IMG/VR virus record: IMGVR_UViG_3300042197_001058
Span: 19,597 to 83,596 of that record
DNA from: a virus
DNA: 64,000 nt
Strand: one strand, 5' to 3'
The notes under the pieces were generated by a model that worked only from the letters and a program-made list of their open reading frames with translations, was not told where the DNA came from and searched no databases. The position numbers were made by a program, and so were the translations under genes. Shown in pieces: positions 379-10,820 of the stretch. The number at the start of each line of letters is the position of its first letter. Position 1 is the stretch's first letter.

Positions 379-459
379 GCAAAGCGTTGTGGGGTAAGCA
401 ATTACGACGCAGCGGGCCGCGGCCACTCGCCCTAAGTGCCCTTGGGCTAAGCACTTAGA
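379..459. repeat. Composite inverted repeat element A
   Basis: Two 28-bp imperfect palindromes (379-406 and 432-459) around a 25-bp GC-rich centre containing GGCCGCGGCC. The second one forms an 8-bp stem, CTAAGTGC/GCACTTAG. It lies 12 bp past the stop codon of the next minus-strand gene. Confidence 0.85.
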
Positions 460-471
460 GCGAGGAAGCGT

Positions 472-951
472 TTAGGCTTCTACCGTTTCGTCAAAGAAAG
501 ACCCACAATCAAAATCATTCCAAATACCCACAGGAATCATATCCTTAGTCTTATATTCGATATAGTTATCATATCCATCAGTCCATATACCACAAAAGCA
601 CATTCCTGGCTCAAAATAACTAGCATGAACCTTATAGCCCAACTCATCCAGTTTTTCATATAATCCGATGGGAGGAGCCCAAGCACTGTCAAATGAACAA
701 CAAGCCTCATTGTCCACCACAGTGGCCTTTAGACCATGAAACTCTTCTCTCTCTGTTCCTAAGTCCGCACCAATATCCCACTTTGTTCCCCAGTTATTTA
801 CGCACCAATCGTACCATCCATCGCCAATATCGCTTGGTATAGGTAGAAACTCATTACAAACAGTTCCTTTATTGTAAGACTCCACAAACCTATCCATAGC
901 AGTCTTATCTGCATGGGAAACGGTCAACTTATTCAGGCACCAGTTAGGCAT
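472..951 (-). CDS. YubB/Api92-like protein (MPNWC family)
   Basis: 159 residues. The N-terminus MPNWCLNKLTV is the hallmark of the phage and plasmid family with a ferredoxin-like fold (YubB, Api92). The family is common in phage accessory regions but its biochemical role is not known. The rest has many aromatic residues and cysteines and ends in an acidic tail. GAGGAAC lies upstream of the ATG. The start overlaps the end of the 57-codon gene at 944-1117, so the two are probably translationally coupled and share the promoter at 1127-1155. Family assignment is fairly sure; function is open. Confidence 0.85.
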   Translation of the reverse strand: MPNWCLNKLTVSHADKTAMDRFVESYNKGTVCNEFLPIPSDIGDGWYDWCVNNWGTKWDIGADLGTEREEFHGLKATVVDNEACCSFDSAWAPPIGLYEKLDELGYKVHASYFEPGMCFCGIWTDGYDNYIEYKTKDMIPVGIWNDFDCGSFFDETVEA

Positions 952-1117
952 TTTTATAGTTCCTCAAAAACTTTAGAATATCGTGCAAGTAGTACGACCA
1001 GTATACCACCTCATCGCCATTATGCAACTCGTAGTGATAATGACAAACCAGAGCAAGTCCCTTGCCGTTAGCAATCATCTCCACAATGCTAAACGTATCG
1101 TCAGAGTAGTCTACCAT
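944..1117 (-). CDS. Hypothetical small protein (57 aa)
   Basis: Begins MVDYSDDTFSIVEMIANGKG and ends in LKFLRNYKNA. It has no recognisable domain and is His/Tyr-rich in the middle. Its stop overlaps the start of the YubB-like gene, the usual sign of coupling in this array. No Shine-Dalgarno is visible. The ATG lies only 9 nt after the -10 box TAGAAT (1127-1132), so the message is probably leaderless or nearly so. It is too short for most gene finders but is supported by promoter position and overlap. Confidence 0.6.
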   Translation of the reverse strand: MVDYSDDTFSIVEMIANGKGLALVCHYHYELHNGDEVVYWSYYLHDILKFLRNYKNA

Positions 1118-1126
1118 AGATTTTAG

Positions 1127-1155
1127 ATTCTAGCATAGCCATTATCGGCTGTCAA
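1127..1155 (-). promoter_or_regulatory. sigma70-type promoter
   Basis: TTGACA (1150-1155), 17-bp spacer with CCGATAAT, TAGAAT (1127-1132). The -35 contains the TGA stop (1152-1154) of the upstream gene. Confidence 0.75.
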
Positions 1156-1331
1156 GTGTCCTCAACTTTAGAAACTTTTTCGATTAGATTGTGAATCATT
1201 CCTTTATAGAATTCTTCTTGTTTATCCTTCAAAAGATATAGACCAGCAATAAGCATACATATTTCAAACTGAGAAAATTCTACATTTTTAGTTTTGAATA
1301 AAGATTCAACAGCATTCGATATTGCACTCAT
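1152..1331 (-). CDS. Hypothetical small protein (59 aa)
   Basis: Begins MSAISNAVESLFKTKNVEFS and ends KVSKVEDT. It is a mixed amphipathic, probably helical protein that I do not recognise. The Shine-Dalgarno is AGAGGAC just before the ATG. Its stop codon is the TGA inside the -35 box of the next promoter, so coding and regulatory sequence overlap by design. It is the second gene of a two-gene unit after the 47-codon gene at 1384-1527, with about 50 nt between them. Confidence 0.65.
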   Translation of the reverse strand: MSAISNAVESLFKTKNVEFSQFEICMLIAGLYLLKDKQEEFYKGMIHNLIEKVSKVEDT

Positions 1332-1346
1332 TATAGTCCTCTAAGT

Positions 1347-1388
1347 TTCGCTGACTACACCCACACAACCCAAATCCGTAGGATTAGG
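1347..1388 (-). repeat. 42-bp downstream repeat, copy 1
   Basis: About 33 of 42 positions match 4052-4093. Both copies lie at the 3' end of a small minus-strand gene (1384-1527 here, 4099-4257 there). Function unknown. Confidence 0.6.
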
Positions 1389-1527
1389 CAGGACAGTTAT
1401 CTAGTATTCGTTCAACCCAAAGATACCGTCCGTATTTATCAGTGGCTTTTGCGTATGCTTCGTATTCGGATACTGCGGTTATATAACCAACAATCCGATT
1501 ATTTTGCCAAACTCGCCAAGTGTGCAT
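1384..1527 (-). CDS. Hypothetical small protein (47 aa)
   Basis: Begins MHTWRVWQNNRIVGYITAVS, followed by an EYEAYAKATDKYG segment. The pattern of a short beta strand pair then an alanine-rich helix ending in YG resembles that of the 56-codon protein at 9187-9357, so the two may be distant relatives. The Shine-Dalgarno is strong (AAGGAGA, 7 nt from the ATG). Its promoter at 1546-1573 has a perfect TATAAT. No function can be given. Confidence 0.7.
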   Translation of the reverse strand: MHTWRVWQNNRIVGYITAVSEYEAYAKATDKYGRYLWVERILDNCPA

Positions 1528-1545
1528 CACTTTCTCCTTAGCCTG

Positions 1546-1573
1546 ATTATATCTATTATCGGCAATTTGTCAA
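1546..1573 (-). promoter_or_regulatory. Cassette-boundary promoter with CGATAAT box
   Basis: TTGACA (1568-1573), 16-bp spacer with CCGATAAT, perfect TATAAT (1546-1551). Drives 1384-1527 and 1152-1331. Confidence 0.8.
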
Positions 1574-1589
1574 GAAAAATTTAGTTATC

Positions 1590-1670
1590 GTAACCCTATA
1601 TTAGATAAGCACTTATGGAAAATTTAGCGGCGCCGCCCCGTCCTAAGTTCTGCCATAGCAACAACTTAGG
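1590..1670. repeat. Composite inverted repeat element B
   Basis: 28-bp units at 1590-1617 and 1643-1670, with a 25-bp centre containing GCGGCGCCGC. The right unit has a perfect 8-bp stem, CCTAAGTT/AACTTAGG when the flanking C is included. Confidence 0.85.
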
Positions 1671-1698
1671 ATTAGGGGTTTTTATGGACGCTCAATTT

Positions 1699-2106
1699 TT
1701 AGAGAACCATCGCGGCTACCTTACGAAACAAGGGATGAGAGATAGGCAACCTACGCACGTTCTTAGTACGCTCTGCATAAAAATTGCGAATCTTACCATC
1801 ATTCGTCTGGCAAGTAACCAGATGCTTAGTACGTTTGAAATTAGGGTCATTAGCCCGATACCGACTGCGAGCATTGAGCCTGCGAATCTGGAGATCGTCC
1901 AGCGTATAAACCGGCTCGATAACCTTGGCAAGAACACGCTCGGGATCACCATGATGTGGTTGCTCATATTCAAAGTTGAAAATATCTCCAACCTTGGCAT
2001 TAGCAAGAGAACCATGCACACCACGAATCGCACTAAACAGAAAGAAACCCACAGCAAACACCACGCCAACACCAACCGCAACAAGAGTAATCGTCGTATC
2101 GTTCAT
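1699..2106 (-). CDS. Membrane-anchored hypothetical protein
   Basis: 135 residues. Residues 7-27 form one hydrophobic segment that should act as an N-terminal membrane anchor. The remainder is soluble and basic (KVGDIFNFEYEQPHHGDPER, later RRLNARSRYRAND), which suggests a cytoplasmic domain that may touch nucleic acid or lipid. AAGAAAGG precedes the ATG. The promoter at 2149-2176 lies immediately upstream. The overlapping ORFs on the other strand and frame here look like shadows. Function is not recognised. Confidence 0.75.
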   Translation of the reverse strand: MNDTTITLVAVGVGVVFAVGFFLFSAIRGVHGSLANAKVGDIFNFEYEQPHHGDPERVLAKVIEPVYTLDDLQIRRLNARSRYRANDPNFKRTKHLVTCQTNDGKIRNFYAERTKNVRRLPISHPLFRKVAAMVL

Positions 2107-2148
2107 ATCAAACCTTTCTTAGAGAAATCTAACCATGACGTTTCCAAC

Positions 2149-2176
2149 ATTCTACACTATTATCATCAATTGTCAA
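2149..2176 (-). promoter_or_regulatory. Internal sigma70-type promoter
   Basis: TTGACA (2171-2176), 16-bp spacer with the variant TGATAAT, TAGAAT (2149-2154). The -35 contains the TGA stop (2173-2175) of the upstream gene. Confidence 0.75.
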
Positions 2177-2394
2177 GAGCAAACTTGAGCAAAATTTTCC
2201 ACAATCTCGCTGCGGAAAGAGCATACAGCAAGTCCGCTTGTCGCAACCAGCGTATCCATCATAATCCCCAGATATTCTGCACGTTCCATAGCATTACTAG
2301 TGTCATGCTCAGGAATATCCAGTGTAAACTCCTTATCCACCCCAACCTCACCACTTTCAGTTTCGACCACAATATCAAAGAAACGGTGTTGCAT
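2173..2394 (-). CDS. Hypothetical small protein (73 aa)
   Basis: Begins MQHRFFDIVVETESGEVGVD. Acidic in the first half, more hydrophobic after EYLGIMMDTLVATSGLAVCS. No family recognised. AGAGGAC lies upstream of the ATG. The stop codon is embedded in the -35 box of the promoter for the downstream membrane protein gene. First gene of its cassette, read from the promoter at 2419-2447. Confidence 0.7.
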   Translation of the reverse strand: MQHRFFDIVVETESGEVGVDKEFTLDIPEHDTSNAMERAEYLGIMMDTLVATSGLAVCSFRSEIVENFAQVCS

Positions 2395-2418
2395 ACTGTC
2401 CTCTCTTTCTTGCGTTCT

Positions 2419-2447
2419 ATCCTACAATACTATTATCGGCTTGTCAA
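2419..2447 (-). promoter_or_regulatory. Cassette-boundary promoter with CGATAAT box
   Basis: TTGACA (2442-2447), 17-bp spacer with CCGATAAT, TAGGAT (2419-2424). Confidence 0.65.
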
Positions 2448-2477
2448 GCGAAAAATCTTAAAAAAATTTTTTTGATC

Positions 2478-2558
2478 GTAAAGCATTAAGGAGTAAGAAC
2501 TTACGTCAAATCCGGCGGTGTCGCTTGCTTCTAAGTCTTTTAATTGCAAGACTTTAGA
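2478..2558. repeat. Composite inverted repeat element C
   Basis: 28-bp units at 2478-2505 and 2531-2558, with a 25-bp centre (CCGGCGG). It ends 2 bp before the stop codon of the gene at 2561. Confidence 0.85.
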
Positions 2559-2560
2559 GA

Positions 2561-2854
2561 TTAATCCTCTTTCCAAGGATAAGGCTGCACATAAGGTCCG
2601 TAAAAATCATATAAATATTTAAAATTTTGATCATTGTGATACTGGTAATTTTTTATAAGCTCCTGCACAGCACACTGATACAATATAATAGGACCCATCT
2701 TATTCCAACAATAATTACGATAACCATCTTTCGTAATCATGGTAACGAAGCCATTACCAAATCTCATAATAGTACCCCAAACATTCTTACCATGGTAGGT
2801 AAAGTTTAGAGTATTACTCAACCAATAAGGCCAATACGGATTATTACCGTTCAT
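2561..2854 (-). CDS. Hypothetical aromatic-rich protein (97 aa)
   Basis: Begins MNGNNPYWPYWLSNTLNFTY. It is unusually rich in Tyr, Trp and Asn throughout and ends PYPWKED. No family recognised. The ATG start (2854) is chosen over the GTG one codon upstream because it forms a TGATG overlap with the stop of the preceding gene, showing coupling. It is the last gene of a four-gene operon (3334, 3119, 2854, 2561). Confidence 0.75.
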   Translation of the reverse strand: MNGNNPYWPYWLSNTLNFTYHGKNVWGTIMRFGNGFVTMITKDGYRNYCWNKMGPIILYQCAVQELIKNYQYHNDQNFKYLYDFYGPYVQPYPWKED

Positions 2855-3117
2855 CACAGCCCCTTCCGTAGATAGGATATTTCCCGCCCATTATGCATCA
2901 TCTCACGATACAACTCAACACGACGAGCCTTTTCCCTCTTCTCTTCTTCGTGGTCAGTTTCACTACGTTCCATACTATCGCACTTGTCTTCCAGATCGGC
3001 CAAACTCACACTATCAGTTCTATGATCTTGAAAGTTTTCAGGAAGCAAACTATTAGGAACCAGTACTATATCCTTCACAATCTCATTCAGTTGAGCAATC
3101 AGTTCATAACCGTTCAT
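2854..3117 (-). CDS. Hypothetical protein (87 aa)
   Basis: The start is set at MNGYELIAQLNEIV, because CAGGAG sits at the right distance and the upstream gene stops 1-2 nt before this ATG. A longer frame to 3165 would overlap that gene. The protein is acidic and then charged helical (DHEEEKREKARRVELYREMM), which suggests a coiled coil. Function unknown. It overlaps the following gene by TGATG. Confidence 0.75.
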   Translation of the reverse strand: MNGYELIAQLNEIVKDIVLVPNSLLPENFQDHRTDSVSLADLEDKCDSMERSETDHEEEKREKARRVELYREMMHNGREISYLRKGL

Positions 3118-3118
3118 T

Positions 3119-3328
3119 TCAAACTCCTGCTGGTACATAGTGCTGTTGCATATCCATACGCACATCGTTCAAAGTTCTATAGTGACCAACATAAGTCAAC
3201 TGTGGCATAAGATGATACAACACAAAATGATTCCAGTCAAGAGGCTTTTCCAGGTACACAACTCTAAAACCCATCAACTGAGCATCGAACTGCAAGTCAT
3301 CCAGATCCATATTACTCAACTTTTTCAT
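3119..3328 (-). CDS. Hypothetical protein (69 aa)
   Basis: Begins MKKLSNMDLDDLQFDAQLMG and contains an aromatic, His-rich middle part. No recognised family. GAGGAA precedes the ATG. It sits second in the operon, 5 nt after the gene at 3334-3522, and its stop is followed directly by the next start. Confidence 0.75.
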   Translation of the reverse strand: MKKLSNMDLDDLQFDAQLMGFRVVYLEKPLDWNHFVLYHLMPQLTYVGHYRTLNDVRMDMQQHYVPAGV

Positions 3329-3333
3329 ACTAA

Positions 3334-3522
3334 CTATTCCTCAATCTCACTTACATAGCACTCACAACCATATTCGTCATAAGCCTTACGTTTGGCTTCG
3401 CTAGCAGTATGACAATCCACTACCGTTCCTAGGTGCTTATTGTCACTCTTACGATAGACAACATACATACCCGTATCATGACGATTATACGGATTCCAAC
3501 GATCCTCATAATATCTACTCAT
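3334..3522 (-). CDS. Hypothetical protein (62 aa)
   Basis: Begins MSRYYEDRWNPYNRHDTGMY; then a segment VVDCHTASEAKRKAYDEYGC of the type seen in several small phage proteins (beta strand, helix with alanines, YGC), and an acidic end. GAGAGAG acts as Shine-Dalgarno. First gene of a four-gene operon read from 3548-3575. Function unknown. Confidence 0.75.
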   Translation of the reverse strand: MSRYYEDRWNPYNRHDTGMYVVYRKSDNKHLGTVVDCHTASEAKRKAYDEYGCECYVSEIEE

Positions 3523-3547
3523 TTTTCACTCTCTCTTTCATCTTTGG

Positions 3548-3575
3548 ATTCTACCATATATTATCGGCTTGTCAA
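3548..3575 (-). promoter_or_regulatory. Cassette-boundary promoter with CGATAAT box
   Basis: TTGACA (3570-3575), 16-bp spacer with CCGATAAT, TAGAAT (3548-3553). Drives the four-gene operon 3522 to 2561. Confidence 0.8.
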
Positions 3576-3605
3576 GAGAAAAAACTTAAAAAAAATATTT
3601 TAGCT

Positions 3606-3685
3606 ATAAAGTGTTGAGAAATAAGAACTTACGACCAGCTCGGCCGCACCCGCCACCCTAAGTGCCGAAGCACCAAGGGTTTAGG
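3606..3685. repeat. Composite inverted repeat element D
   Basis: 28-bp units at 3606-3633 and 3658-3685, 24-bp centre with CGGCCG. The right unit extends to a long stem, CACCCTAA/TTTAGGGTG (3654-3688). The stop codon of the next gene is 8 bp away. Confidence 0.85.
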
Positions 3686-3692
3686 GTGATGT

Positions 3693-3989
3693 TCACTCAA
3701 AATCCACAAAAATAACCTGATGATAGCCTCTAGGCTTTACGGTATAACTATCTCCGTAATCATAAGTATCGGCCTTAACCCCCGTCATTCCAGCCAGAGC
3801 CTTAGCCTTGCGAACGATATTACGTTGCGAAGCATGTTTATGAATGGTAAACTCATGACGCTTTACCCAACCATAGTTAGGTTCACCACCAAAAGTATCT
3901 GTGTGAGTAACATTAACCTTCACCATATTCTTCTCATTCTCCTTGGGAATATAAGCATTAATCCAATCTTGCAGAGTCATACCAGCCAT
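3693..3989 (-). CDS. Conserved-type phage hypothetical protein (98 aa)
   Basis: Begins MAGMTLQDWINAYIPKENEK, followed by a beta-rich part with TDTFGGEPNYGWVKRHEF and a short Arg/Lys-rich helix (RNIVRKAKALAGMTG). This layout looks like a family often seen in phages, but I cannot name it. The ATG at 3989 is preferred over an upstream TTG (3995) because AAAGGA lies 7 nt upstream. Own promoter at 4012-4039. Confidence 0.75.
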   Translation of the reverse strand: MAGMTLQDWINAYIPKENEKNMVKVNVTHTDTFGGEPNYGWVKRHEFTIHKHASQRNIVRKAKALAGMTGVKADTYDYGDSYTVKPRGYHQVIFVDFE

Positions 3990-4011
3990 AACCAATCCTT
4001 TCTTTTTATAG

Positions 4012-4039
4012 ATTCTACACTGTAATTTTTGATTGTCAA
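4012..4039 (-). promoter_or_regulatory. Internal sigma70-type promoter
   Basis: TTGACA (4034-4039), 16-bp AT-rich spacer without the CGATAAT box, TAGAAT (4012-4017). Confidence 0.75.
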
Positions 4040-4051
4040 GACCGCTATATT

Positions 4052-4093
4052 TTCGCTGACTACAGCCACACCAGCCGATTCCATAAGATTAGC
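4052..4093 (-). repeat. 42-bp downstream repeat, copy 2
   Basis: Matches 1347-1388 at about 33 of 42 positions. It begins just past the stop codon of the 52-codon gene (4099-4257). Confidence 0.6.
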
Positions 4094-4098
4094 AGAGA

Positions 4099-4257
4099 CT
4101 ACCAGTCATTTATAGCCTGATTATTCCTTGATTGACGGGTACGGAGTCTCTTGGGTCTATTGTCGTGCTGACCCGAGCCGCTATTGTGGACGTTATGACC
4201 CTTGCCAATTGCCCAGATTGGCTTAACTTCCAGTTTGATTTTTTGCTTTTTCATCAT
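4099..4257 (-). CDS. Hypothetical basic small protein (52 aa)
   Basis: Begins MMKKQKIKLEVKPIWAIGKG, then HNVHNSGSG and a strongly basic stretch (NRPKRLRTRQSRNN) before INDW. The basic, Gly/Asn-rich character suggests a nucleic-acid-binding peptide, but no family is recognised. There is no Shine-Dalgarno; the first ATG lies 6 nt past the -10 box of the promoter at 4264-4291, so translation is probably leaderless (ATG at 4257 or 4254). Confidence 0.6.
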   Translation of the reverse strand: MMKKQKIKLEVKPIWAIGKGHNVHNSGSGQHDNRPKRLRTRQSRNNQAINDW

Positions 4258-4263
4258 ACGCTT

Positions 4264-4291
4264 ATCTTACTCTATTATCGGTCAGAGTCAA
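4264..4291 (-). promoter_or_regulatory. Cassette-boundary promoter with CGATAAT box
   Basis: TTGACT (4286-4291), 16-bp spacer with CCGATAAT, TAAGAT (4264-4269). Start codons 6-9 nt downstream imply a leaderless message. Confidence 0.7.
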
Positions 4292-4320
4292 GAGAAAACT
4301 TCAGAAAAAATATTTTGTCT

Positions 4321-4401
4321 CTAAAGTCTTGTCATATAAAGACTTATGGCTTGTTTTTGCGGCCCGCCGCGACGTAAGTGCTTACGCCACAACGGTTTAG
4401 A
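4321..4401. repeat. Composite inverted repeat element E
   Basis: 28-bp units at 4321-4348 and 4374-4401; 25-bp centre with GCGGCCCGCCGC. A 21-bp stretch across the centre and second unit is identical to element I (7858-7938). It abuts the stop codon at 4402. Confidence 0.85.
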
Positions 4402-4605
4402 TCACACCATTTCTTCCAGAGGAAAGCCTTCCTCATAGAGCAAATCATGTGCCGCTTCCACTGCAATATCATTGGCTTCTTGCGGATTCAGTTCTGGATC
4501 ATAGTAATTGTACAGATCAAAATCTGGCAGATCACCAAGAGAGAGACCACACTGTTTATTCAGTTCAGCATTTACCAACTGTCGAAACTCTTTTATCGTC
4601 AACAT
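4402..4605 (-). CDS. Hypothetical acidic protein (67 aa)
   Basis: Begins MLTIKEFRQLVNAELNKQCG, then DLPDFDLYNYYD and an acidic helical tail (EANDIAVEAAHDLLYEEG). It resembles small acidic proteins seen in many phages, none with a known role. The start overlaps the stop of the preceding gene as TAATG, so translation is coupled. The composite repeat follows the stop directly. Confidence 0.75.
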   Translation of the reverse strand: MLTIKEFRQLVNAELNKQCGLSLGDLPDFDLYNYYDPELNPQEANDIAVEAAHDLLYEEGFPLEEMV

Positions 4606-4883
4606 TAGAAATCTTCTCCATAATAGCCATAATCCTCGTCTGTCCCAAATCCAGCATCTCGCATGGCACTGTCGAAATCTCCATCCATACTATCATCGAC
4701 ATCATCATTCCAAACATCTTCTTCCTCGTTCTCATAATCATCATCAGTATGAGTAGAAATCTCATGATCCGCATCCGGATGATAGTTACTACTATCCTCG
4801 TCAAAGTAATCGTTATAATAGTCGTAATTCATATCATCCTCATAAGAGTTATCAGGATCAAAAAGGGGATCTGGGTGACTCAT
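4605..4883 (-). CDS. Extremely acidic protein, possible DNA mimic (92 aa)
   Basis: By my count 26 Asp and 9 Glu in 92 residues, one Arg and no Lys, with Tyr spaced among the acids (YEDDMNYDYYNDYFDED). Proteins of this composition in phages often mimic DNA and block restriction enzymes, nucleoid proteins or repressors; that role here is inference only. Low-complexity spacing could equally mean a disordered chaperone-like peptide. AAAGGAAC precedes the ATG. The gene is coupled to the downstream acidic protein gene (4402-4605). Confidence 0.75.
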   Translation of the reverse strand: MSHPDPLFDPDNSYEDDMNYDYYNDYFDEDSSNYHPDADHEISTHTDDDYENEEEDVWNDDVDDSMDGDFDSAMRDAGFGTDEDYGYYGEDF

Positions 4884-4884
4884 A

Positions 4885-4968
4885 TTAGTTCCTTTCCAGA
4901 GTGAGGTTCAAATAAAGGAATCCGAAGTATAGCACGACTCCGCATACCGTCAAGAGCAAATCCAACAT
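4885..4968 (-). CDS. Single-TM micropeptide (27 aa)
   Basis: MLDLLLTVCGVVLYFGFLYL plus NLTLERN: one clean transmembrane helix. It starts on a TGATG overlap with the stop of the gene at 4968-5126, has GGAGG 9 nt upstream, and ends two nt before the ATG at 4883. It therefore exactly bridges the two neighbours. Its coding sequence also contains the promoter at 4926-4953, which argues some caution. Confidence 0.45.
   Translation of the reverse strand: MLDLLLTVCGVVLYFGFLYLNLTLERN
4926..4953 (-). promoter_or_regulatory. Internal sigma70-type promoter
   Basis: TTGACG (4948-4953), 16-bp spacer, TATACT (4926-4931); no CGATAAT box. It lies inside the 27-codon ORF and drives the acidic protein genes. 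Confidence 0.6.
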
Positions 4969-5126
4969 CAAAACGCCTCCTCGGGGACAAAATCTTCTAC
5001 ACACCCCACCACATCTGCCCAATCCCAAAAGTTAATTTCGACATTGGGATCATCAATAGGCTCAATCATACCATCGTCGGCCATCTCTGCAAGAATCCGA
5101 TTCACATCATCAAAATCGTTGAGCAT
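4968..5126 (-). CDS. Hypothetical acidic small protein (52 aa)
   Basis: Begins MLNDFDDVNRILAEMADDGM and ends VEDFVPEEAF; 16 acidic residues by count. No family recognised. The Shine-Dalgarno is very strong (GAGGAGGAAG, then AATC and the ATG). It is the first gene of its cassette and overlaps the 27-codon TM peptide by TGATG. Confidence 0.65.
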   Translation of the reverse strand: MLNDFDDVNRILAEMADDGMIEPIDDPNVEINFWDWADVVGCVEDFVPEEAF

Positions 5127-5151
5127 GATTCTTCCTCCTCTTGATGCTCTG

Positions 5152-5180
5152 AGTCTACACTAATTATCGACCAAATGCAA
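5152..5180 (-). promoter_or_regulatory. Cassette-boundary promoter with CGATAAT box
   Basis: TTGCAT (5175-5180), 17-bp spacer with TCGATAAT, TAGACT (5152-5157). Confidence 0.6.
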
Positions 5181-5243
5181 GTTCAAACTTTGGAGAAAAA
5201 CAAAAATTTTATGGCACAGTATTTGCGTGTGTAAAGATTGATC

Positions 5244-5324
5244 CTAAGTCTTTATGCTGCAACGACTTAGGTATCGCGGGGCGGGCCCTTTATGACGTAA
5301 GTCTTTACGCCACAAGGGTTTAGA
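5244..5324. repeat. Composite inverted repeat element F
   Basis: 28-bp units at 5244-5271 and 5297-5324; 25-bp centre with GGGGCGGGCCC. The left unit has a perfect 8-bp stem when the flanking C is counted (CCTAAGTC/GACTTAGG). Confidence 0.85.
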
Positions 5325-5330
5325 GCTAGT

Positions 5331-5402
5331 TTAGATATTAGCGAATAAAGCTACTACAGAACCGAGAATAAAAGAAACAGCCCAAAGAATTTCTTTACTC
5401 AT
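5331..5402 (-). CDS. Single-TM micropeptide (23 aa)
   Basis: MSKEILWAVSFILGSVVALF plus ANI: one transmembrane helix. The ribosome site is weak (AT-rich leader), but the gene sits in a row of similar peptides just before composite element F, in the usual position of the last gene of a cassette. Confidence 0.5.
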   Translation of the reverse strand: MSKEILWAVSFILGSVVALFANI

Positions 5403-5417
5403 TTTTATTTCTATTTT

Positions 5418-5513: not shown

Positions 5514-5528
5514 CCGTGATCCTTTATA

Positions 5529-5752: not shown

Positions 5753-5773
5753 TGCAAACTCCTCTCAAGGTGC

Positions 5774-5801: not shown

Positions 5802-5804
5802 GTC

Positions 5805-6092
5805 TCAGCCTTGTCGGTTTACGGTATTCTCCATAGCCTTTCCGGCCTTGAACTTTACTACCTTACGCTCACCGATCATCACAGTCTCACCCGTTCGTGG
5901 GTTGCGAGCCTTACGCGGAGCGGACACCTTGACCGTAAACACGCCAAAGTTACGCAATTCGATGCGACCTTCCGCCGCGAGCGTTGCGACCAGATCATCC
6001 AACGTGGCCTGCACGATTTCTCTGGCCTGCAAACCCGTCACCCCCACCTTCTCCGCGATCCGCTCAACCATATTTCGCTTCGTGGCATTCAT
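5805..6092 (-). CDS. HU/IHF-family DNA-binding protein
   Basis: 95 residues, the normal HU length. The family fold is plain: N-terminal helices (MVERIAEKVGVTGLQAREIV), then GRIELRNFGVFTVK, the DNA-wrapping arm around ARNPRTGETV, and a C-terminal FKAGKAM helix. HU-like proteins bend DNA and help replication, packaging and gene control. The gene is GC-richer than its neighbours. AAGGAG precedes the ATG. Its position inside the repeat array makes the composite palindromes possible binding targets, but nothing in the sequence proves this. Confidence 0.93.
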   Translation of the reverse strand: MNATKRNMVERIAEKVGVTGLQAREIVQATLDDLVATLAAEGRIELRNFGVFTVKVSAPRKARNPRTGETVMIGERKVVKFKAGKAMENTVNRQG

Positions 6093-6116
6093 TCTCTTTT
6101 CTCCTTGGATACTGCT

Positions 6117-6144
6117 AATCTACCATAGATTATCGTCCTGTCAA
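6117..6144 (-). promoter_or_regulatory. Cassette-boundary promoter with CGATAAT box
   Basis: TTGACA (6139-6144), 16-bp spacer with ACGATAAT, TAGATT (6117-6122). Drives the HU-like gene. Confidence 0.75.
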
Positions 6145-6185
6145 TAGGGTATTCTTAAAAAAAATCCAAAAATATTTTTCTCGTC

Positions 6186-6266
6186 ATAAAGTGTTGCTGC
6201 ATAAGCACTTACGACGCTGCGGGGGGCGCGGCCTCACCCTAAGTCGTTTAGGGATAAGGCTTTACG
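6186..6266. repeat. Composite inverted repeat element G
   Basis: 28-bp units at 6186-6213 and 6239-6266; 25-bp GC-rich centre. The right unit includes CCCTAA/TTAGGG. The stop codon at 6268 follows. Confidence 0.85.
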
Positions 6267-6267
6267 A

Positions 6268-6579
6268 TCAGTTTCCCACCACCATACCATCCATAAATGG
6301 ATAGGATTTGTCGTTGATCTTTACAAACCATTCGAAATTCTTTTGATAGACATAACGCGGGCTATACTGGTTGATTCTATCCTTTGTGGTCAGAGTTTGC
6401 CAGCCTCCACTATTTAGAGTGTAGGTATTATCCTCATGAATCTTTACCACATAGGTACTATGCAGCATGATACCCACGCTCCCGTCATGCAGGATTTCCG
6501 CATAGGTGTTGTTGCCAACCTTGCGACGAGTTGCGTTACGCTTGCCACGAACCATAGAAACTGCTTCAGCATGTGTCAT
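6268..6579 (-). CDS. Phage hypothetical protein with LNSGGW motif (103 aa)
   Basis: Begins MTHAEAVSMVRGKRNATRRK, then NNTYAEI, LHSTYVVKI and TLNSGGWQTLTTKDRIN. That motif series resembles a group of uncharacterised proteins in phages of diverse hosts; no function is known. The start at 6579 replaces a longer frame to 6630, because the longer start falls inside the -35 box of its promoter and AAAGGG lies just before the ATG at 6579. Confidence 0.8.
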   Translation of the reverse strand: MTHAEAVSMVRGKRNATRRKVGNNTYAEILHDGSVGIMLHSTYVVKIHEDNTYTLNSGGWQTLTTKDRINQYSPRYVYQKNFEWFVKINDKSYPFMDGMVVGN

Positions 6580-6602
6580 ATTTATCCCTTTCTTATTGTT
6601 GT

Positions 6603-6630
6603 ATCTTATCAAAAAGTGTTTTTGTGTCAA
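6603..6630 (-). promoter_or_regulatory. Internal sigma70-type promoter
   Basis: TTGACA (6625-6630), 16-bp spacer, TAAGAT (6603-6608); no CGATAAT box. Confidence 0.7.
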
Positions 6631-6635
6631 CCCCT

Positions 6636-6842
6636 TTATCGTAGGGTTGCTCCGTTGGCTTTGGCATAACGATACATAGCCCGCTCATCTACCATAAATC
6701 GCTCAACCCCCTTCAAGTCCTTGAAGTCCCAATGGTAGGTCAGCACATCCGAGCGAACCATCCATCGGGCTTCAACGTCAGAAGTCCGCTTGAGCGTGTA
6801 ACCCAGTTTCTGCAACTCTTTTGCAATCGTCTTGCTATTCAT
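6636..6842 (-). CDS. Hypothetical protein (68 aa)
   Basis: Begins MNSKTIAKELQKLGYTLKRT, then a segment with WMVRSDVLTYHWDFKD. The helix-then-strand pattern could be a small DNA-binding or Arc-like fold, but no family is recognised. GAGGAAA precedes the ATG. It has its own promoter (6877-6905), and the stop lies 6 nt from the -35 of the next promoter. Confidence 0.75.
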   Translation of the reverse strand: MNSKTIAKELQKLGYTLKRTSDVEARWMVRSDVLTYHWDFKDLKGVERFMVDERAMYRYAKANGATLR

Positions 6843-6876
6843 CGTTTCCTCTTTCTTTCTTACTTCTTATATCGAC

Positions 6877-6905
6877 ATTATATCGTCTCAATCTTGAATT
6901 TTCAA
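6877..6905 (-). promoter_or_regulatory. Cassette-boundary promoter
   Basis: TTGAAA (6900-6905), 17-bp spacer, perfect TATAAT (6877-6882). A CGATATAA box lies just downstream of the -10 instead of in the spacer. Confidence 0.65.
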
Positions 6906-6993
6906 GAGAAAAATCGAAAAAATATTGTCAAGAAATTTTGACAGAAAAATCTTAGAAATTTTATAGTTTGGCATATGATTTGCAATTATGTAT

Positions 6994-7073
6994 CTAAGTT
7001 GTTGTAGGATAAGTACTTAGAGCTAGTCGGGCCCAGCAACTTGACGCAAGTCCTGTGATAGTAAGGATTTACG
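6994..7073. repeat. Composite inverted repeat element H
   Basis: 28-bp units at 6994-7021 and 7046-7073; 24-bp centre with GGGCCC. The right unit is extended into a long hairpin, CTTGACG/CGTCAAG (7040-7078). Confidence 0.85.
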
Positions 7074-7099
7074 TCAAGCTTTTGTTCAGTAGTGAACAA

Positions 7100-7441
7100 T
7101 CATTCATCACTTGCTTTGAATGCGAATGGAGAAACTTCCTCACCACACGCCAAAATCGCACCATATTGGTGAGCCAGTGCTTCAACCCTTTCCCATGAAC
7201 CCGGCTTTCCAGCCTTCACGATCATGGTATCCTCACCCCCAATAAGACGGGGATTCGTCTTTTCTTTCTGTACTTTGCCCAAATTGCGAAGTGCCTTTCG
7301 ATTGAACTTCAGAACCTTTTCCGAGCGAATAGGGCCGTAAACCCCTTCGGCAAGAGAGGGTTGGTGAGGAATGGCAATCCCCAGAAAGCACATACGGGCT
7401 TGACGCTTAGCATTTTCGATGATCTCAAACTTCTGCTTCAT
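7100..7441 (-). CDS. Hypothetical basic protein (113 aa)
   Basis: Begins MKQKFEIIENAKRQARMCFL; a middle part rich in Lys/Arg (KFNRKALRNLGKVQKEKTNP) and a C-terminal part with GSWERVEALAHQYG. Predicted basic overall. No family recognised. GAAAGGAAC precedes the ATG. Single gene between element H and the promoter at 7466-7495. Confidence 0.75.
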   Translation of the reverse strand: MKQKFEIIENAKRQARMCFLGIAIPHQPSLAEGVYGPIRSEKVLKFNRKALRNLGKVQKEKTNPRLIGGEDTMIVKAGKPGSWERVEALAHQYGAILACGEEVSPFAFKASDE

Positions 7442-7465
7442 AACTGTTCCTTTCGTGTTGGTCGT

Positions 7466-7495
7466 ATTCTAGCAAAAACTTTCTATTGGTGTCAA
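7466..7495 (-). promoter_or_regulatory. Internal sigma70-type promoter
   Basis: TTGACA (7490-7495), 18-bp spacer, TAGAAT (7466-7471). The -35 contains the TGA stop (7492-7494) of the upstream gene. Confidence 0.65.
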
Positions 7496-7686
7496 CCCCT
7501 ATCGTGAGGGGTATAGCAATCCAAACCCAGTTTGCGACGGATTACGCGAAGAGCCTGCAAATCCTCGATCAGCATTTTGGTAAGAGATTCACTCACACCG
7601 CTTTCGATCAGGGAACTCATGTTGTCCTCACTGGTTTTCAACAGGGCAGACACGACAATTTCTTCGGTCACAGTCAACTTTTCCAT
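7492..7686 (-). CDS. Hypothetical helical protein (64 aa)
   Basis: Begins MEKLTVTEEIVVSALLKTSE, then alternating helices (LTKMLIEDLQALRVIRRKLG). It could be a small helical regulator; not recognised. GAGAGAG precedes the ATG. The stop is embedded in the -35 box of the next promoter. Confidence 0.7.
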   Translation of the reverse strand: MEKLTVTEEIVVSALLKTSEDNMSSLIESGVSESLTKMLIEDLQALRVIRRKLGLDCYTPHDRG

Positions 7687-7712
7687 CTTTCACTCTCTCT
7701 TTCTTATGCTAG

Positions 7713-7742
7713 ATTATACGATAAATTATCGTCAAAAGTCAA
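7713..7742 (-). promoter_or_regulatory. Cassette-boundary promoter with CGATAAT box
   Basis: TTGACT (7737-7742), 18-bp spacer with ACGATAAT, perfect TATAAT (7713-7718). Confidence 0.65.
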
Positions 7743-7773
7743 ATGCAATCTTTAGAAAAATTCCAGATTGTTC

Positions 7774-7801
7774 TTAAGTCCTTATGAGATATAGGTTTAG
7801 A
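7774..7801. repeat. Solitary 28-bp palindromic unit
   Basis: Aligns without gaps with the 28-bp units of the composite elements, but stands alone 56 bp left of element I. It is probably a remnant of a lost or collapsed composite. Confidence 0.65.
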
Positions 7802-7857
7802 GAGAGTCTTTTTTTTGAGGCTTCTGATAGGACATCTAGTATGATGAGAAATGTGTC

Positions 7858-7938
7858 GTAAACCTAGTCTCCACAAGTACTTACGTCAAATTTTCGCGGC
7901 CCGCCGCGACGTAAGTCTTTACTCCGCAACGCTTTAGG
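7858..7938. repeat. Composite inverted repeat element I
   Basis: 28-bp units at 7858-7885 and 7911-7938; 25-bp centre CGCGGCCCGCCGCG, shared with element E. The right unit overlaps the stop codon of the gene at 7934. Confidence 0.85.
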
Positions 7939-8086
7939 CAAAGTCTTCTTCACCCTGGAAATCGTCCAGCCACTCATCATCCGTTTCCACCCAGTCTTCC
8001 GCATCTCCCATAATCGGATCCCAACCCTCATCTTCAAAAAAGCCCATCATCCACTCTTCTCCGTTTTCGTCGATCATCTTTTCCAT
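7934..8086 (-). CDS. Very acidic small protein (50 aa)
   Basis: Begins MEKMIDENGEEWMMGFFEDE and ends DDFQGEEDFA. By count 21 of 50 residues are Asp or Glu, with regularly placed Trp. A second candidate DNA- or RNA-mimic beside the one at 4605; inference only. AAGGAA lies about 8 nt before the ATG. It follows the gene at 8104-8253 in the same unit. Confidence 0.65.
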   Translation of the reverse strand: MEKMIDENGEEWMMGFFEDEGWDPIMGDAEDWVETDDEWLDDFQGEEDFA

Positions 8087-8103
8087 TTTTATTTTCCTTA
8101 TTT

Positions 8104-8253
8104 TCAGGAGATCAATTCCATGTCCTCATCATAGCACTCATACTCTTCCCCGTCAATCTCAACATGCCAAACATTCCCTTCATCAAAATGCCAGAGAATG
8201 ATTCGGCCAAACTTCCCATCAACCTTCACCTTATCGCCAAGAGCAAACTGCAT
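8104..8253 (-). CDS. Small beta-barrel-like protein (49 aa)
   Basis: MQFALGDKVKVDGKFGRIIL is followed by WHVEIDGEEYECYDEDMELI. The G-D-K-V-x-V, F-G-x-I and short strand pattern is that of an SH3/KOW-type mini barrel, often a nucleic-acid or protein docking module. Strong AAGGAGA before the ATG. Own promoter at 8283-8310. Function unknown. Confidence 0.7.
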   Translation of the reverse strand: MQFALGDKVKVDGKFGRIILWHFDEGNVWHVEIDGEEYECYDEDMELIS

Positions 8254-8282
8254 TTTCTTTCTCCTTACTTTCTTATATCGGC

Positions 8283-8310
8283 ATTATACAGAAAAATCTT
8301 TAAGCGTCAA
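8283..8310 (-). promoter_or_regulatory. Internal sigma70-type promoter
   Basis: TTGACG (8305-8310), 16-bp spacer, perfect TATAAT (8283-8288), then CCGATATAA just downstream of the -10. The -35 contains the TGA stop (8307-8309) of the upstream gene. Confidence 0.7.
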
Positions 8311-8483
8311 TACTGAACATTTGTTTTTTCTAGAATCGTATCCAAATAAACTTCCTTATCCGTTACAACCCAACCATATTCCCTATTTGGCGTATACGTC
8401 CCAAAATACATCTTTCCCTCATCGCACCCCTCAAATCCTATACCGAATCCCATGAAGGTAATCAAAAAAACCACATCGTACAT
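8307..8483 (-). CDS. Hypothetical membrane-associated protein (58 aa)
   Basis: Begins MYDVVFLITFMGFGIGFEGC, a hydrophobic Gly-rich N-terminus that could insert in the membrane, then a polar part ending KTNVQY. The start at 8483 is preferred over 8519, because AGAGAGG lies before this ATG and the longer start would fall inside the promoter spacer. Confidence 0.65.
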   Translation of the reverse strand: MYDVVFLITFMGFGIGFEGCDEGKMYFGTYTPNREYGWVVTDKEVYLDTILEKTNVQY

Positions 8484-8498
8484 TTTGGCCTCTCTTTC

Positions 8499-8526
8499 TA
8501 TATATAGATTATCGGCCAATCCCCAA
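8499..8526 (-). promoter_or_regulatory. Cassette-boundary promoter with CGATAAT box
   Basis: Weak -35 TTGGGG (8521-8526), 16-bp spacer with CCGATAAT, TATATA (8499-8504). Confidence 0.5.
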
Positions 8527-8552
8527 TCATTAGTTTAGAAAAAATACAGAGC

Positions 8553-8633
8553 GTAAACTCTTACTGCATAAGTACTTACGTCAAAACTGGCCGCACCGCC
8601 TTGCTCTAAGTCCTTTAGCAGCAAGGACTTATG
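8553..8633. repeat. Composite inverted repeat element J
   Basis: 28-bp units at 8553-8580 and 8606-8633; 25-bp centre with TGGCCGC. The right unit has a perfect 9-bp stem, TAAGTCCTT/AAGGACTTA (8607-8631). Confidence 0.85.
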
Positions 8634-8638
8634 TTCGA

Positions 8639-8827
8639 TTATTTGGCGTGAATGAACACCCGTTCGCTTACTGTACGGTTGGTCACCGTAACGATCCAGT
8701 TCTTCCCACTACCATCCTCACGCATGATGCAGTTGATTAGGCCAACATGCACATTACCCTTTGGGTCAATAACGCTACCATACTTACCGGTACGCATAGC
8801 AGAAAGAATCTTATCAAGGCTATTCAT
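8639..8827 (-). CDS. Hypothetical protein (62 aa)
   Basis: Begins MNSLDKILSAMRTGKYGSVI, then DPKGNVHVGLINCIMREDGS and a beta-rich C-terminus (NWIVTVTNRTVSERVF). It looks like a small beta sandwich; no family recognised. The ribosome site is weak (GGGTGA, which also holds the stop of the preceding membrane peptide), consistent with coupling. Confidence 0.7.
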   Translation of the reverse strand: MNSLDKILSAMRTGKYGSVIDPKGNVHVGLINCIMREDGSGKNWIVTVTNRTVSERVFIHAK

Positions 8828-8830
8828 ATT

Positions 8831-8980
8831 TCACCCAAAATAAACAAGAGGAATATAAACAAAAAAGTAGAAAACAGACGAAAGAAGAAAGGCTATAATT
8901 GCACATCCGCTAATCATTCCGAAAGTGCCAACATCATCAGCCTTTTCACCAAAAAGGTTATAGCAAATCCAATTCTTCAT
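8831..8980 (-). CDS. Small membrane protein (49 aa)
   Basis: Begins MKNWICYNLFGEKADDVGTF, then a long hydrophobic stretch (IIAFLLSSVFYFFVYIPLVY) long enough for one or two membrane passes. AAGGAT before the ATG. It is the first gene after the promoter at 9014-9041 and lies 3 nt upstream of the next start. Function unknown. Confidence 0.65.
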   Translation of the reverse strand: MKNWICYNLFGEKADDVGTFGMISGCAIIAFLLSSVFYFFVYIPLVYFG

Positions 8981-9013
8981 TTTCTTATCCTTTGCTTTCT
9001 TTCTTATGCCATT

Positions 9014-9041
9014 ATTATACAGAGATTATCGGCCAAGTCAA
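9014..9041 (-). promoter_or_regulatory. Cassette-boundary promoter with CGATAAT box
   Basis: TTGACT (9036-9041), 16-bp spacer with CCGATAAT, perfect TATAAT (9014-9019). Confidence 0.75.
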
Positions 9042-9105
9042 TAGGCTTTCTTGAAAAAAACCGAAAAATAATCGTGTGCCAAATGAGAAGAAAAATAGAG
9101 TTGTC

Positions 9106-9185
9106 GTAAGTCTATATATGCCAACCACTTACGTCGAATTCGGCCCCGCGATTTGCCCTAAGTCCTTATGCAGTAAGGGTTTACG
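9106..9185. repeat. Composite inverted repeat element K
   Basis: 28-bp units at 9106-9133 and 9158-9185; 24-bp centre with CGGCCCCGCG. The left unit has stem CGTAAGT/ACTTACG (with the flanking C). The right unit pairs over 10 bp if G-T pairs are allowed. Confidence 0.85.
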
Positions 9186-9186
9186 T

Positions 9187-9357
9187 TCACCAAACCACTA
9201 ATCCGCCTTCCTCTGGCAATGGGGCTGTACATGCGAACACTTCGCCAAACTTATACCCCCACTTTTGGGTAGCTAGTGTGCGGGCTTCCACCCAATCAAT
9301 AGCATATACTGTACCTAAGCGTTTAGCGTCAACAGCACGATACATATAGAAAACCAT
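9187..9357 (-). CDS. Hypothetical small protein (56 aa)
   Basis: Begins MVFYMYRAVDAKRLGTVYAI, then DWVEARTLATQKWGYKFG and a C-terminus GGLVVW. Layout (strand pair, then a helix with A-x-x-K-x-G) resembles the 47-codon protein at 1384-1527. AAAGG before the ATG. Its stop codon is 1 nt from composite element K. Function unknown. Confidence 0.65.
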   Translation of the reverse strand: MVFYMYRAVDAKRLGTVYAIDWVEARTLATQKWGYKFGEVFACTAPLPEEGGLVVW

Positions 9358-9368
9358 GATTATAGCCT

Positions 9369-9479
9369 TTAGCTGTTCAGATAAGAATTGATAGCGTTGC
9401 CGATTTCATGCACAAGATACGAAACAAATGCACAGGCAGCAAGCAAACCGGTCAAGAGAACATAATCACTGAAAATCAT
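9369..9479 (-). CDS. TM micropeptide with VHEIGNAI motif (36 aa)
   Basis: Begins MIFSDYVLLTGLLAACAFVS, followed by YLVHEIGNAINSYLNS. Paralogue of the peptide at 5642-5752, same length and same conserved C-terminal motif. This gives independent support that both are real genes. AAGGG lies upstream of the ATG. It sits between the genes at 9495 and 9187 in one unit. Confidence 0.75.
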   Translation of the reverse strand: MIFSDYVLLTGLLAACAFVSYLVHEIGNAINSYLNS

Positions 9480-9494
9480 TTTCTTACCCTTTAT

Positions 9495-9707
9495 TCAAGA
9501 CCAACCAAACTCGGAAGCATTCTCACAAGCAACATCATAGTAGAGATCGTTAATCTTGTCAAACGCATTCTTTTCGTTAACCCTAACCGAATGGCAACCA
9601 TCTTCCCATTCGATACGGTAGCAATCACCGCTCATGTTGACGCGAACACGGTTAGCATCATCACCGAAAATCTTTTCCACAATCATCATCACTTCATTCT
9701 TGCTCAT
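9495..9707 (-). CDS. Hypothetical protein (70 aa)
   Basis: Begins MSKNEVMMIVEKIFGDDANR, then VRVNMSGDCYRIEWEDGC and a helical, acidic end. A compact alpha/beta protein that I do not recognise. GAGAGA before the ATG; first gene of a three-gene unit read from 9734-9761. Confidence 0.75.
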   Translation of the reverse strand: MSKNEVMMIVEKIFGDDANRVRVNMSGDCYRIEWEDGCHSVRVNEKNAFDKINDLYYDVACENASEFGWS

Positions 9708-9733
9708 AATCTTTCTCTCTTTCTCTTTCCAGT

Positions 9734-9761
9734 ATTATACCAAACTTTTCCCGCCCGTCAA
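9734..9761 (-). promoter_or_regulatory. Internal sigma70-type promoter
   Basis: TTGACG (9756-9761), 16-bp spacer, perfect TATAAT (9734-9739); no CGATAAT box. Confidence 0.7.
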
Positions 9762-9767
9762 CCCCTC

Positions 9768-9992
9768 TTATCGGGGGATAGCAATCATTCCGTTGAAGTG
9801 AGAAAACGTAAGGGTCAAGTTTTGACCGGGATACTTGCTGTTGATGTACACCTGAGCAGTACTTTTCCGATTATCGGTAGAGCCTACATACTGTACAACC
9901 GTACCAGTGGAATCCGTAACCTTCCACACTTTCTTTTGCACAATCTTAGGAAGCGTAGCAAGGAAACCATTCACACTCATACTCTTTTCCAT
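9768..9992 (-). CDS. Hypothetical protein (74 aa)
   Basis: Begins MEKSMSVNGFLATLPKIVQK, then a beta-rich part with VGSTDNRKSTAQVYINSKYP. Not recognised. The start at 9992 is chosen over 10049, which would lie in the promoter -35; AGAGAG with a short spacing precedes the shorter start. A single-gene unit at the head of its cassette. Confidence 0.7.
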   Translation of the reverse strand: MEKSMSVNGFLATLPKIVQKKVWKVTDSTGTVVQYVGSTDNRKSTAQVYINSKYPGQNLTLTFSHFNGMIAIPR

Positions 9993-10020
9993 CTCTATCA
10001 CTCTCTTTCTTTGATACTTG

Positions 10021-10049
10021 ATTCTACCAATATTATCGACCAAATGCAA
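10021..10049 (-). promoter_or_regulatory. Cassette-boundary promoter with CGATAAT box
   Basis: TTGCAT (10044-10049), 17-bp spacer with TCGATAAT, TAGAAT (10021-10026). Confidence 0.65.
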
Positions 10050-10112
10050 GAGAAAACTTTTAGAAAAATAAAAATAATTTCATGCCAAATCTATAAAAAA
10101 TTTTTAGTATAC

Positions 10113-10193
10113 CTAAGTCATTACGGGCTAAGTACTTACGTCAAGTTTTGCCGCAATACCTTTCTCTAAGTGCTTTAGTAGCAAGGGTTTACG
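10113..10193. repeat. Composite inverted repeat element L
   Basis: 28-bp units at 10113-10140 and 10166-10193; 25-bp centre TTGCCGCAA, less GC-rich than most. Next stop codon 1 nt away. Confidence 0.85.
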
Positions 10194-10194
10194 A

Positions 10195-10344
10195 TCAATA
10201 TTCTCCTCGATCTTCGATAACCTCTTCACCAATTACTTCGCAATGATCTAGGCAAGATGGGCAAATCTCATAATCTGCCTGTGCAAAAGTCATATGAGCC
10301 CCACAACAATCAGAAGAAAAAATTACGGTAATTACGCTGTCCAT
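10195..10344 (-). CDS. Small zinc-ribbon-like protein (49 aa)
   Basis: Begins MDSVITVIFSSDCCGAHMTF, followed by YEICPSCLDHCEVIGEE. The CCGA...CPxCxxHC arrangement looks like a tiny zinc-binding family seen in many phages, of unknown role. Zinc binding is inferred from Cys13, Cys14, Cys28, Cys31 and Cys35. GAAAGGAC before the ATG. Confidence 0.75.
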   Translation of the reverse strand: MDSVITVIFSSDCCGAHMTFAQADYEICPSCLDHCEVIGEEVIEDRGEY

Positions 10345-10367
10345 ATTCGTCCTTTCGTGTTGAGCCT

Positions 10368-10396
10368 ATTTTAGCAACTAATTTTTAGGTTGTCAA
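10368..10396 (-). promoter_or_regulatory. Internal sigma70-type promoter
   Basis: TTGACA (10391-10396), 17-bp spacer, TAAAAT (10368-10373); no CGATAAT box. Confidence 0.7.
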
Positions 10397-10400
10397 TACC

Positions 10401-10625
10401 TTACGGAATATACATATCGCTAACAACATTCCCGTTATCGTCGATAACGATTTCTCCACCATCATCACAGAAACCGATCTCCTCGTCGATGTTGATCACG
10501 TTACCGTTAGCCCGAACATGGTCGAGCAGATCACCAGAGAAAACCACTTCGCCCACAAGGGTCGAAAGAGTAGAGTTGTTGTTCAGAAACCCGGTCAACT
10601 CAGCCACAGTGTTCAGCGCAATCAT
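10401..10625 (-). CDS. Hypothetical acidic protein (74 aa)
   Basis: Begins MIALNTVAELTGFLNNNSTL, then a beta-rich acidic C-terminal half (INIDEEIGFCDDGGEIVIDD). Not recognised. The start at 10625 has GAGGAG at proper distance; longer frames to 10634 or 10682 place the start on the ribosome site or in the promoter. First gene of the array as transcription runs leftward. Confidence 0.7.
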   Translation of the reverse strand: MIALNTVAELTGFLNNNSTLSTLVGEVVFSGDLLDHVRANGNVINIDEEIGFCDDGGEIVIDDNGNVVSDMYIP

Positions 10626-10653
10626 TTTCGTCATCTCCTCTTGTGTTGAGCAT

Positions 10654-10682
10654 ATTATACATATCGGCCAAACCCGTGTCAA
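10654..10682 (-). promoter_or_regulatory. Cassette-boundary promoter
   Basis: TTGACA (10677-10682), 17-bp spacer with the partial box CCGATATG, perfect TATAAT (10654-10659). Confidence 0.75.
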
Positions 10683-10740
10683 TACCTTAGAAAAATTTTT
10701 TTGAGAATTTTTTCTGACAGCAAATATCGTGCCATTTATT

Positions 10741-10820
10741 CTAAGTCATTATCTCACAAGTACTTACGTCAAGTTTCGCGATACAATAGCACCTAAGTAC
10801 TTATGCCACAACATCTTAGG
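10741..10820. repeat. Composite inverted repeat element M
   Basis: 28-bp units at 10741-10768 and 10793-10820; 24-bp centre TTCGCGA. Right unit stem CCTAAG/CTTAGG is followed on the plus strand by GGGTTTTTT. Rightmost copy; it closes the array next to the subtilase gene. Confidence 0.85.

Follow-up and report, generated by a model that had tools for sequence, protein, structure and literature searches.

The window analysed here is a 64,000-nucleotide stretch of phage DNA, comprising bases 19597-83596 of the 83,596-bp IMG/VR virus record IMGVR_UViG_3300042197_001058, and it carries thirteen copies of an 81-bp composite inverted repeat. This element recurs in a large uncultured group of giant-type phages, where it lies at most of the long gaps between early transcription units. 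Its anatomy, place, orientation, link to promoters and conservation are directly observed. The most economical reading of these features, to which we would give slightly less than an even chance, is that the element, with protein bound to it, forms a boundary at which one early transcription unit ends before the promoter of the next, as a stop or an insulator.

Each of the 13 copies in the window, all of which were located in the record where the original prediction had placed them, consists of two 28-bp units starting 52 or 53 bp apart. Together with a lone unit at 7773-7800, they account for the 27 units that had been counted. Each unit forms the central part of a 37-bp imperfect palindrome (TTGaCsTAA...TTAsGtCAA), and the whole element is made of two such palindromes, or four half-sites of about 15 bp, around a GC-rich core. 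With its centre of symmetry between bases 12 and 13 of the core, the full dyad extends over 90 bp, which confirms and refines the dyad symmetry that had been predicted. Written in transcription orientation, the consensus reads ttgaCgTAAAcCCTTg-n5-tAAGgACTTAGG-gCaAG..gGGcCGGCCg.atTtGa-CGTAAGTcCTTaTg-n4-cAAcgacTTACGacaA. A position weight matrix built from the units gives 86 scores above 12 bits in the 83.6-kb record, compared to 3-5 in dinucleotide shuffles. When relatives were searched with free spacing (30-120 bp), 134 of the 144 pairs found lay at 52-54 bp; the shuffled regions gave 5 pairs in total, so that the alignment stands well above chance. Of the 133 non-redundant elements, 126 have, once the register is corrected, units exactly 53 bp apart, a distance of 5.05 helical turns. 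The prediction that length and spacing remain almost constant while the sequence varies is thereby borne out, and its possible failure in relatives, by absence of the element or by variable spacing, did not occur: the relatives carry the element, and at a nearly fixed spacing.

The arms are conserved base by base and the spacer of each unit is unconserved. Column covariation over 132 elements showed no nested set of a:b pairs of the kind that an inter-unit stem would give, and the whole element folds worse than block-shuffled sequence; a folded attC-like hairpin was rejected on these grounds. Since the arms are conserved in the absence of compensatory changes between the halves, the element is read as a protein site on double-stranded DNA. 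This combination of conserved arms, unconstrained spacers and a constant helical spacing is the trace that protein read-out of double-stranded DNA would be expected to leave, and the element is probably bound by a sequence-specific protein.

Related IMG/VR phages, on contigs of up to 244 kb, contain 592 distinct copies of the element, and at least 7 further copies lie to the left of the window in the same record, whose left 19.6 kb, outside the window, is designated L005. A blastn search of the element against phages and plasmids found no known relatives, and Rfam gave no match at the elements, in agreement with the earlier statement that no known element matches it. The 15 matches in bacterial genomes are about the number expected by chance, with the exception of a few that may be phage contigs binned into metagenome-assembled genomes. 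The record encodes a terminase, a portal-like protein and an adjoining protein with a weak sigma-70 region-2 match, the last of which is also encoded by a relative. Among 26 contigs selected solely for carrying the 81-bp element, 22 encode relatives of the window terminase at 54-77% identity, whereas its identity to terminases of cultured phages is only about 25%. One near-complete relative has an rIIA gene, which points to a lytic phage. This, together with the lack of integrase and CI-like HTH_3 (helix-turn-helix) genes, makes a lysogeny repressor less likely.

In the near-complete relatives G001 (223 kb) and G009 (200 kb), the elements are confined to one segment of 17-19 kb and none is found elsewhere. 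With element orientation in relatives set by promoter direction, the elements follow transcription in 15 of 15 cases in G001 and 14 of 15 in G009, and a further array also keeps one orientation (16/16). The presence of host-type promoters, the small size of the genes and T4-like traits in the clade suggest that the element-bearing segment is expressed early. The distance from the end of the upstream stop codon to the element has its mode at 0-9 bp, and in the window the copy at 10741 is the sole exception, as had been noted, to the rule that a stop codon lies within about 30 bp. With a promoter defined as a sigma-70 match of 10/12 or better no more than 180 bp downstream, 80% of 508 elements are followed by a near-consensus sigma-70 promoter, compared to 4-6% in antisense, upstream and shuffled controls. 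Intrinsic terminators occur in the array at chance level (10 vs 7.3, standard deviation 2.4; 13 vs 11.2, standard deviation 3.4), and no U-tract follows the element. The inter-element segments of the window hold 1-4 genes, some with internal promoters that lack the element, and the claim that it separates every cassette was therefore overstated.

Natural variants show the element and its promoter to be gained and lost. In some phages a given gene pair is separated by element and promoter, and in others the same pair is joined by a direct operon junction of stop codon, ribosome site and start codon. Their joint gain and loss indicates that the two act together as a boundary module. Two further comparisons show the promoter kept and the element missing, so that the element is dispensable for the promoter. 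Two of the gene-pair comparisons, namely the first entry and the set against G000 73454, arose artificially from duplicate loci or gene calling and were left out.

The two halves of the element differ in RNA folding and in inheritance. The stop-side half folds at -13.35 kcal/mol, compared to about -10.9 kcal/mol for within-set recombinants (z about -13, n=172), into a hairpin with a two-part stem (a6-a11:c2-c7 and a13-a18:a24-c1) and an AGNAC loop. For the promoter-side half, no folding excess over recombinants was seen. This enrichment, and the position of the hairpin next to the stop codon, could suggest an RNA-level 3' end, with the hairpin as a pause, processing or exonuclease-blocking structure or as a Rho-dependent terminator, and with DNA binding as a secondary matter. 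We regard this as improbable, given that the U-tract is absent, that Rfam has no match in the element, and that the second palindrome, the rigid 53 bp and the GC core would be left unexplained. In addition, sense and antisense strands of the stop-side half fold about equally (-13.35 vs -12.96), which makes an RNA role likely rather than proven. A minus-strand folding preference, seen in 11 of the 13 window copies, disappeared in the larger set and was abandoned. The earlier comparison with 3' UTR (untranslated region) terminators thus holds for the stop-codon link, the stop-side hairpin and the lack of an intrinsic-terminator excess in the array, and fails for want of a U-tract.

The stop-side half is inherited together with the upstream gene, and its counterpart together with the sequence that follows; in copies that share the upstream gene and have unrelated downstream genes, identity decays across the core. 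The inferred junctions between unrelated cassettes often fall inside the element, with a per-base density in the core about 2-4 times that in the units. Together with an arm-spacer-arm build whose spacer is unconserved, this could recall a site-specific recombination site at cassette edges, of attC, dif or lox type, with 11-6-11 or 15-7-15 arms in inverted pairs, which was one of the analogies originally offered. We nevertheless hold it to be highly improbable. The breakpoints are scattered through the element and not at a single base, the halves show no covariation, and no phage integrase (PF00589) exceeded the Pfam cut-off in 24 records, which gave 2 weak hits. Moreover, gene order is not broken in excess at the elements: synteny kept there and at other gene borders was 0.74 vs 0.65, 0.52 vs 0.57 and 0.45 vs 0.48, and a recombination hot spot at the elements was rejected on two synteny tests. 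The other analogy, with repetitive extragenic palindromic elements and bacterial interspersed mosaic elements (REP/BIME), finds no support, given the single orientation and the lack of a Y1 transposase in the 14 genomes searched, so that none of the analogies fits fully, as had been recognised at the time.

Another explanation is that the element is an operator only, at which a phage or host regulator occupying the four half-sites represses or activates the downstream early promoter, like the dispersed repressor sites of temperate phages; its link to the stop codon would then reflect nothing more than a location in intergenic space. The double-stranded dyad with integral helical spacing and the frequency of downstream promoters are in keeping with this. 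So is the distance from the element to the -35 box, which, below 44 bp, clusters at 18, 28-29 and about 39 bp (a period of about 11); no phase is seen beyond. Because this phasing is clear only below 44 bp and not significant beyond, it is not taken as main evidence. However, the spacing to the promoter varies widely (17-150 bp) where that to the stop codon is tight, and the stop-side half, co-inherited with the upstream gene, bears the hairpin. Promoters with and without the element are equally near the consensus (p=0.19), indicating that an activator is not needed, and neither CI-like HTH_3 nor integrase nor sigma-54 activator genes were found. We therefore consider a pure operator unlikely, if still to be taken seriously.

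If the element is a protein-bound boundary, two protein dimers would bind the four half-sites on the same face of the DNA and act as a tetramer, and the bound complex would stop or insulate polymerase coming from the upstream gene. Each early unit could then be expressed from its own promoter, and the stop-side RNA hairpin may serve as a 3' end or pause structure. Some points weigh against this. A stop function alone does not require a 90-bp dyad, the short-range clustering of element-to-promoter distances would be equally in keeping with a contact to promoter-bound polymerase, and none of the five candidate binder families searched (integrase, HU, sigma-54 activator, RAYT and CI-like HTH_3) is conserved in relatives. 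A more specific proposal is that of a new composite boundary class, in which a tetramer occupying four half-sites, set in exact helical register, acts as a directional roadblock and is combined with the stop-side RNA hairpin within the same 81 bp, at about 15-20 copies per genome throughout the clade, in place of intrinsic terminators; we put it forward tentatively, as possible but doubtful.

The candidates for the binding protein were mostly dropped for lack of conservation, namely tyrosine recombinase, HU, sigma-54 activator, RAYT and CI-like repressor. No RAYT (Y1) transposase was found in the 14 genomes searched, and no CI-like HTH_3 repressor or sigma-54 activator in the phages searched. 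A single relative has a recognisable tyrosine recombinase, of 285 aa and with a weak Pfam hit, at G012:C1:124067-124291 (L237). A protein with a helix-turn-helix and a coiled coil (window 14710-15531) is conserved in 23 of 26 records and has weak hits to phage regulators. It was considered as the binder, but its location beside the terminase equally fits a terminase small subunit. One cassette of the window contains an HU/IHF-like gene (5805-6092, minus strand), which is absent from 30 related records. This absence also bears on the idea that the element is a genome-maintenance or compaction site bound by a partition, packaging or nucleoid protein. A long, helically phased dyad present in many copies would suit such a site, but strict orientation, restriction to early-gene intergenic gaps and the strict link to promoter and stop codon would not, and we find it barely credible.

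All elements of the window lie on the minus strand. Those with units 53 bp apart are element 1 at 379-459 (units 379-406 and 432-459), element 2 at 1590-1670 (1590-1617 and 1643-1670), element 3 at 2478-2558 (2478-2505 and 2531-2558), element 5 at 4321-4401 (4321-4348 and 4374-4401), element 6 at 5244-5324 (5244-5271 and 5297-5324), element 7 at 6186-6266 (6186-6213 and 6239-6266), element 9 at 7858-7938 (7858-7885 and 7911-7938), element 10 at 8553-8633 (8553-8580 and 8606-8633) and element 12 at 10113-10193 (10113-10140 and 10166-10193). A spacing of 52 bp is found in element 4 at 3606-3685 (3606-3633 and 3658-3685), element 8 at 6994-7073 (6994-7021 and 7046-7073), element 11 at 9106-9185 (9106-9133 and 9158-9185) and element 13 at 10741-10820, the first of the array, which is followed by GGGGTTTTTT on the plus strand. 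The lone unit at 7773-7800 (minus strand, 20.3 bits) stands beside the promoter at 7742-7713. Sigma-70 promoters, all on the minus strand, adjoin elements 1 (321-348, TTGACA-16-TAGAAT), 2 (1546-1573, TTGACA-16-TATAAT), 3 (2419-2447), 4 (3548-3575), 5 (4264-4291) and 7 (6117-6144), and others are located downstream of elements 8 (6877-6905), 9 (7713-7742), 11 (9014-9041) and 13 (10654-10682, TTGACA-17-TATAAT). In each array, the first element has next to it an outward-reading sequence of GGGGTTTTTTCG type (G000 10741 in the window, L102 5969, L103 1731, L094 8847 and L097 10561), which would form an intrinsic terminator of antisense transcription that runs out of the array.

The record and its relatives also contain other repeats and RNAs. 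A second intergenic motif of about 48 nt, which reads GTCTCNCCTAATCCTNCGGATTTGG-N4/5-GTGG-NTNTAGTCAGCGA on the transcription strand, occurs in the window at about 1346-1395 (minus), in L005 at about 3823, 4770, 8554 and 17691, and in 45 non-redundant copies in relatives (e.g. L156, L207, L211 and L213). Its stem shows compensatory variants (AATCC/GGATT, AACCC/GGGTT, AATCT/AGATT and AATGT/GCATT), it has no Rfam match, and in 23 of the 45 copies a sigma-70 promoter (at least 10/12) lies within 110 nt downstream. It may represent a second kind of early-unit boundary, at promoters lacking the 81-bp element. Sigma-54-like boxes (TTTGGCAY-N5-TTTGC) accompany the elements of L092 (12/12) and are also present in L086, L088, L094, L096, L097 and the window (about 5212 and 6969). 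They mostly start 13-14 or 8-10 bp past the element on the opposite strand, and 16 were counted in 40 kb of array DNA, as opposed to a single one in 345 kb of other sequence. They may be promoters or a second operator; no sigma-54 activator was found in the phages. Another palindrome, CCTTAC-N3/10-GTAAGG, follows 28 of 552 elements on their downstream side, some of them in L088, L090 and L096, and in some cases it is only a few bases away. Finally, Pistol ribozymes (Rfam RF02679) are located in the array at L005:16147-16209 (minus, 55.4 bits) and L086:15941-16003 (plus, 51.0 bits).

Should the element prove to be a protein-bound boundary, it would show how a large uncultured phage group separates densely packed early units without intrinsic terminators. 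Being compact, rigid and abundant, it should make its binding protein amenable to pull-down, and it could yield a new directional insulator part as well as a sequence marker for the phage clade.

Among known systems, the early-promoter stem-loop (PeSL) cassettes of T4-type phages, reportedly described by Arbiol et al. in 2010 (a study cited in PMC4177764), resemble the element in that a terminator-like structure and a sigma-70-type early promoter stand in tandem between early genes, in many repeats that are gained and lost with gene modules; the present clade also has rIIA and the weak sigma-70 region-2 protein. The element differs from a simple hairpin terminator, however, in being a rigid dyad of 81-90 bp that is composed of four half-sites and lacks a U-tract. 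PeSL cassettes reportedly also mediate the shuffling of genes; here, cassette junctions do fall inside elements and the module comes and goes with its promoter, but gene order is interrupted at elements no more often than at other borders. Integron attC sites, which also stand at the 3' ends of genes, are built of a core flanked by two arm-spacer-arm units in inverted orientation, whereas the element has no a:b covariation, a fixed length and no integrase that was found, although one may exist in trans; the likeness to Xer/dif sites is limited to a resembling 11-6-11 build. The SPBRE of Bacillus phage SPbeta is a 15-bp motif bound by MrpR, a protein with a tyrosine-recombinase fold (PMC10516654). 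It shares with the element its repeated intergenic occurrence, and the regulator that binds it has a fold that recalls the arm-spacer-arm build seen here, but length and build differ and Pfam searches found no conserved recombinase-fold protein in the clade. The stoperators of cluster A mycobacteriophages (L5 and TipsytheTRex) are 13-bp asymmetric sites bound by a monomeric immunity repressor and are thought to stop elongation when bound (PMC9283540). They are similar in their many copies, their short intergenic gaps and their orientation tied to transcription, and differ from a 90-bp dyad for which no HTH_3 repressor was found. By build, the element is a member of neither the PeSLs nor the stoperators, and in its putative function it would stand nearest to these two.

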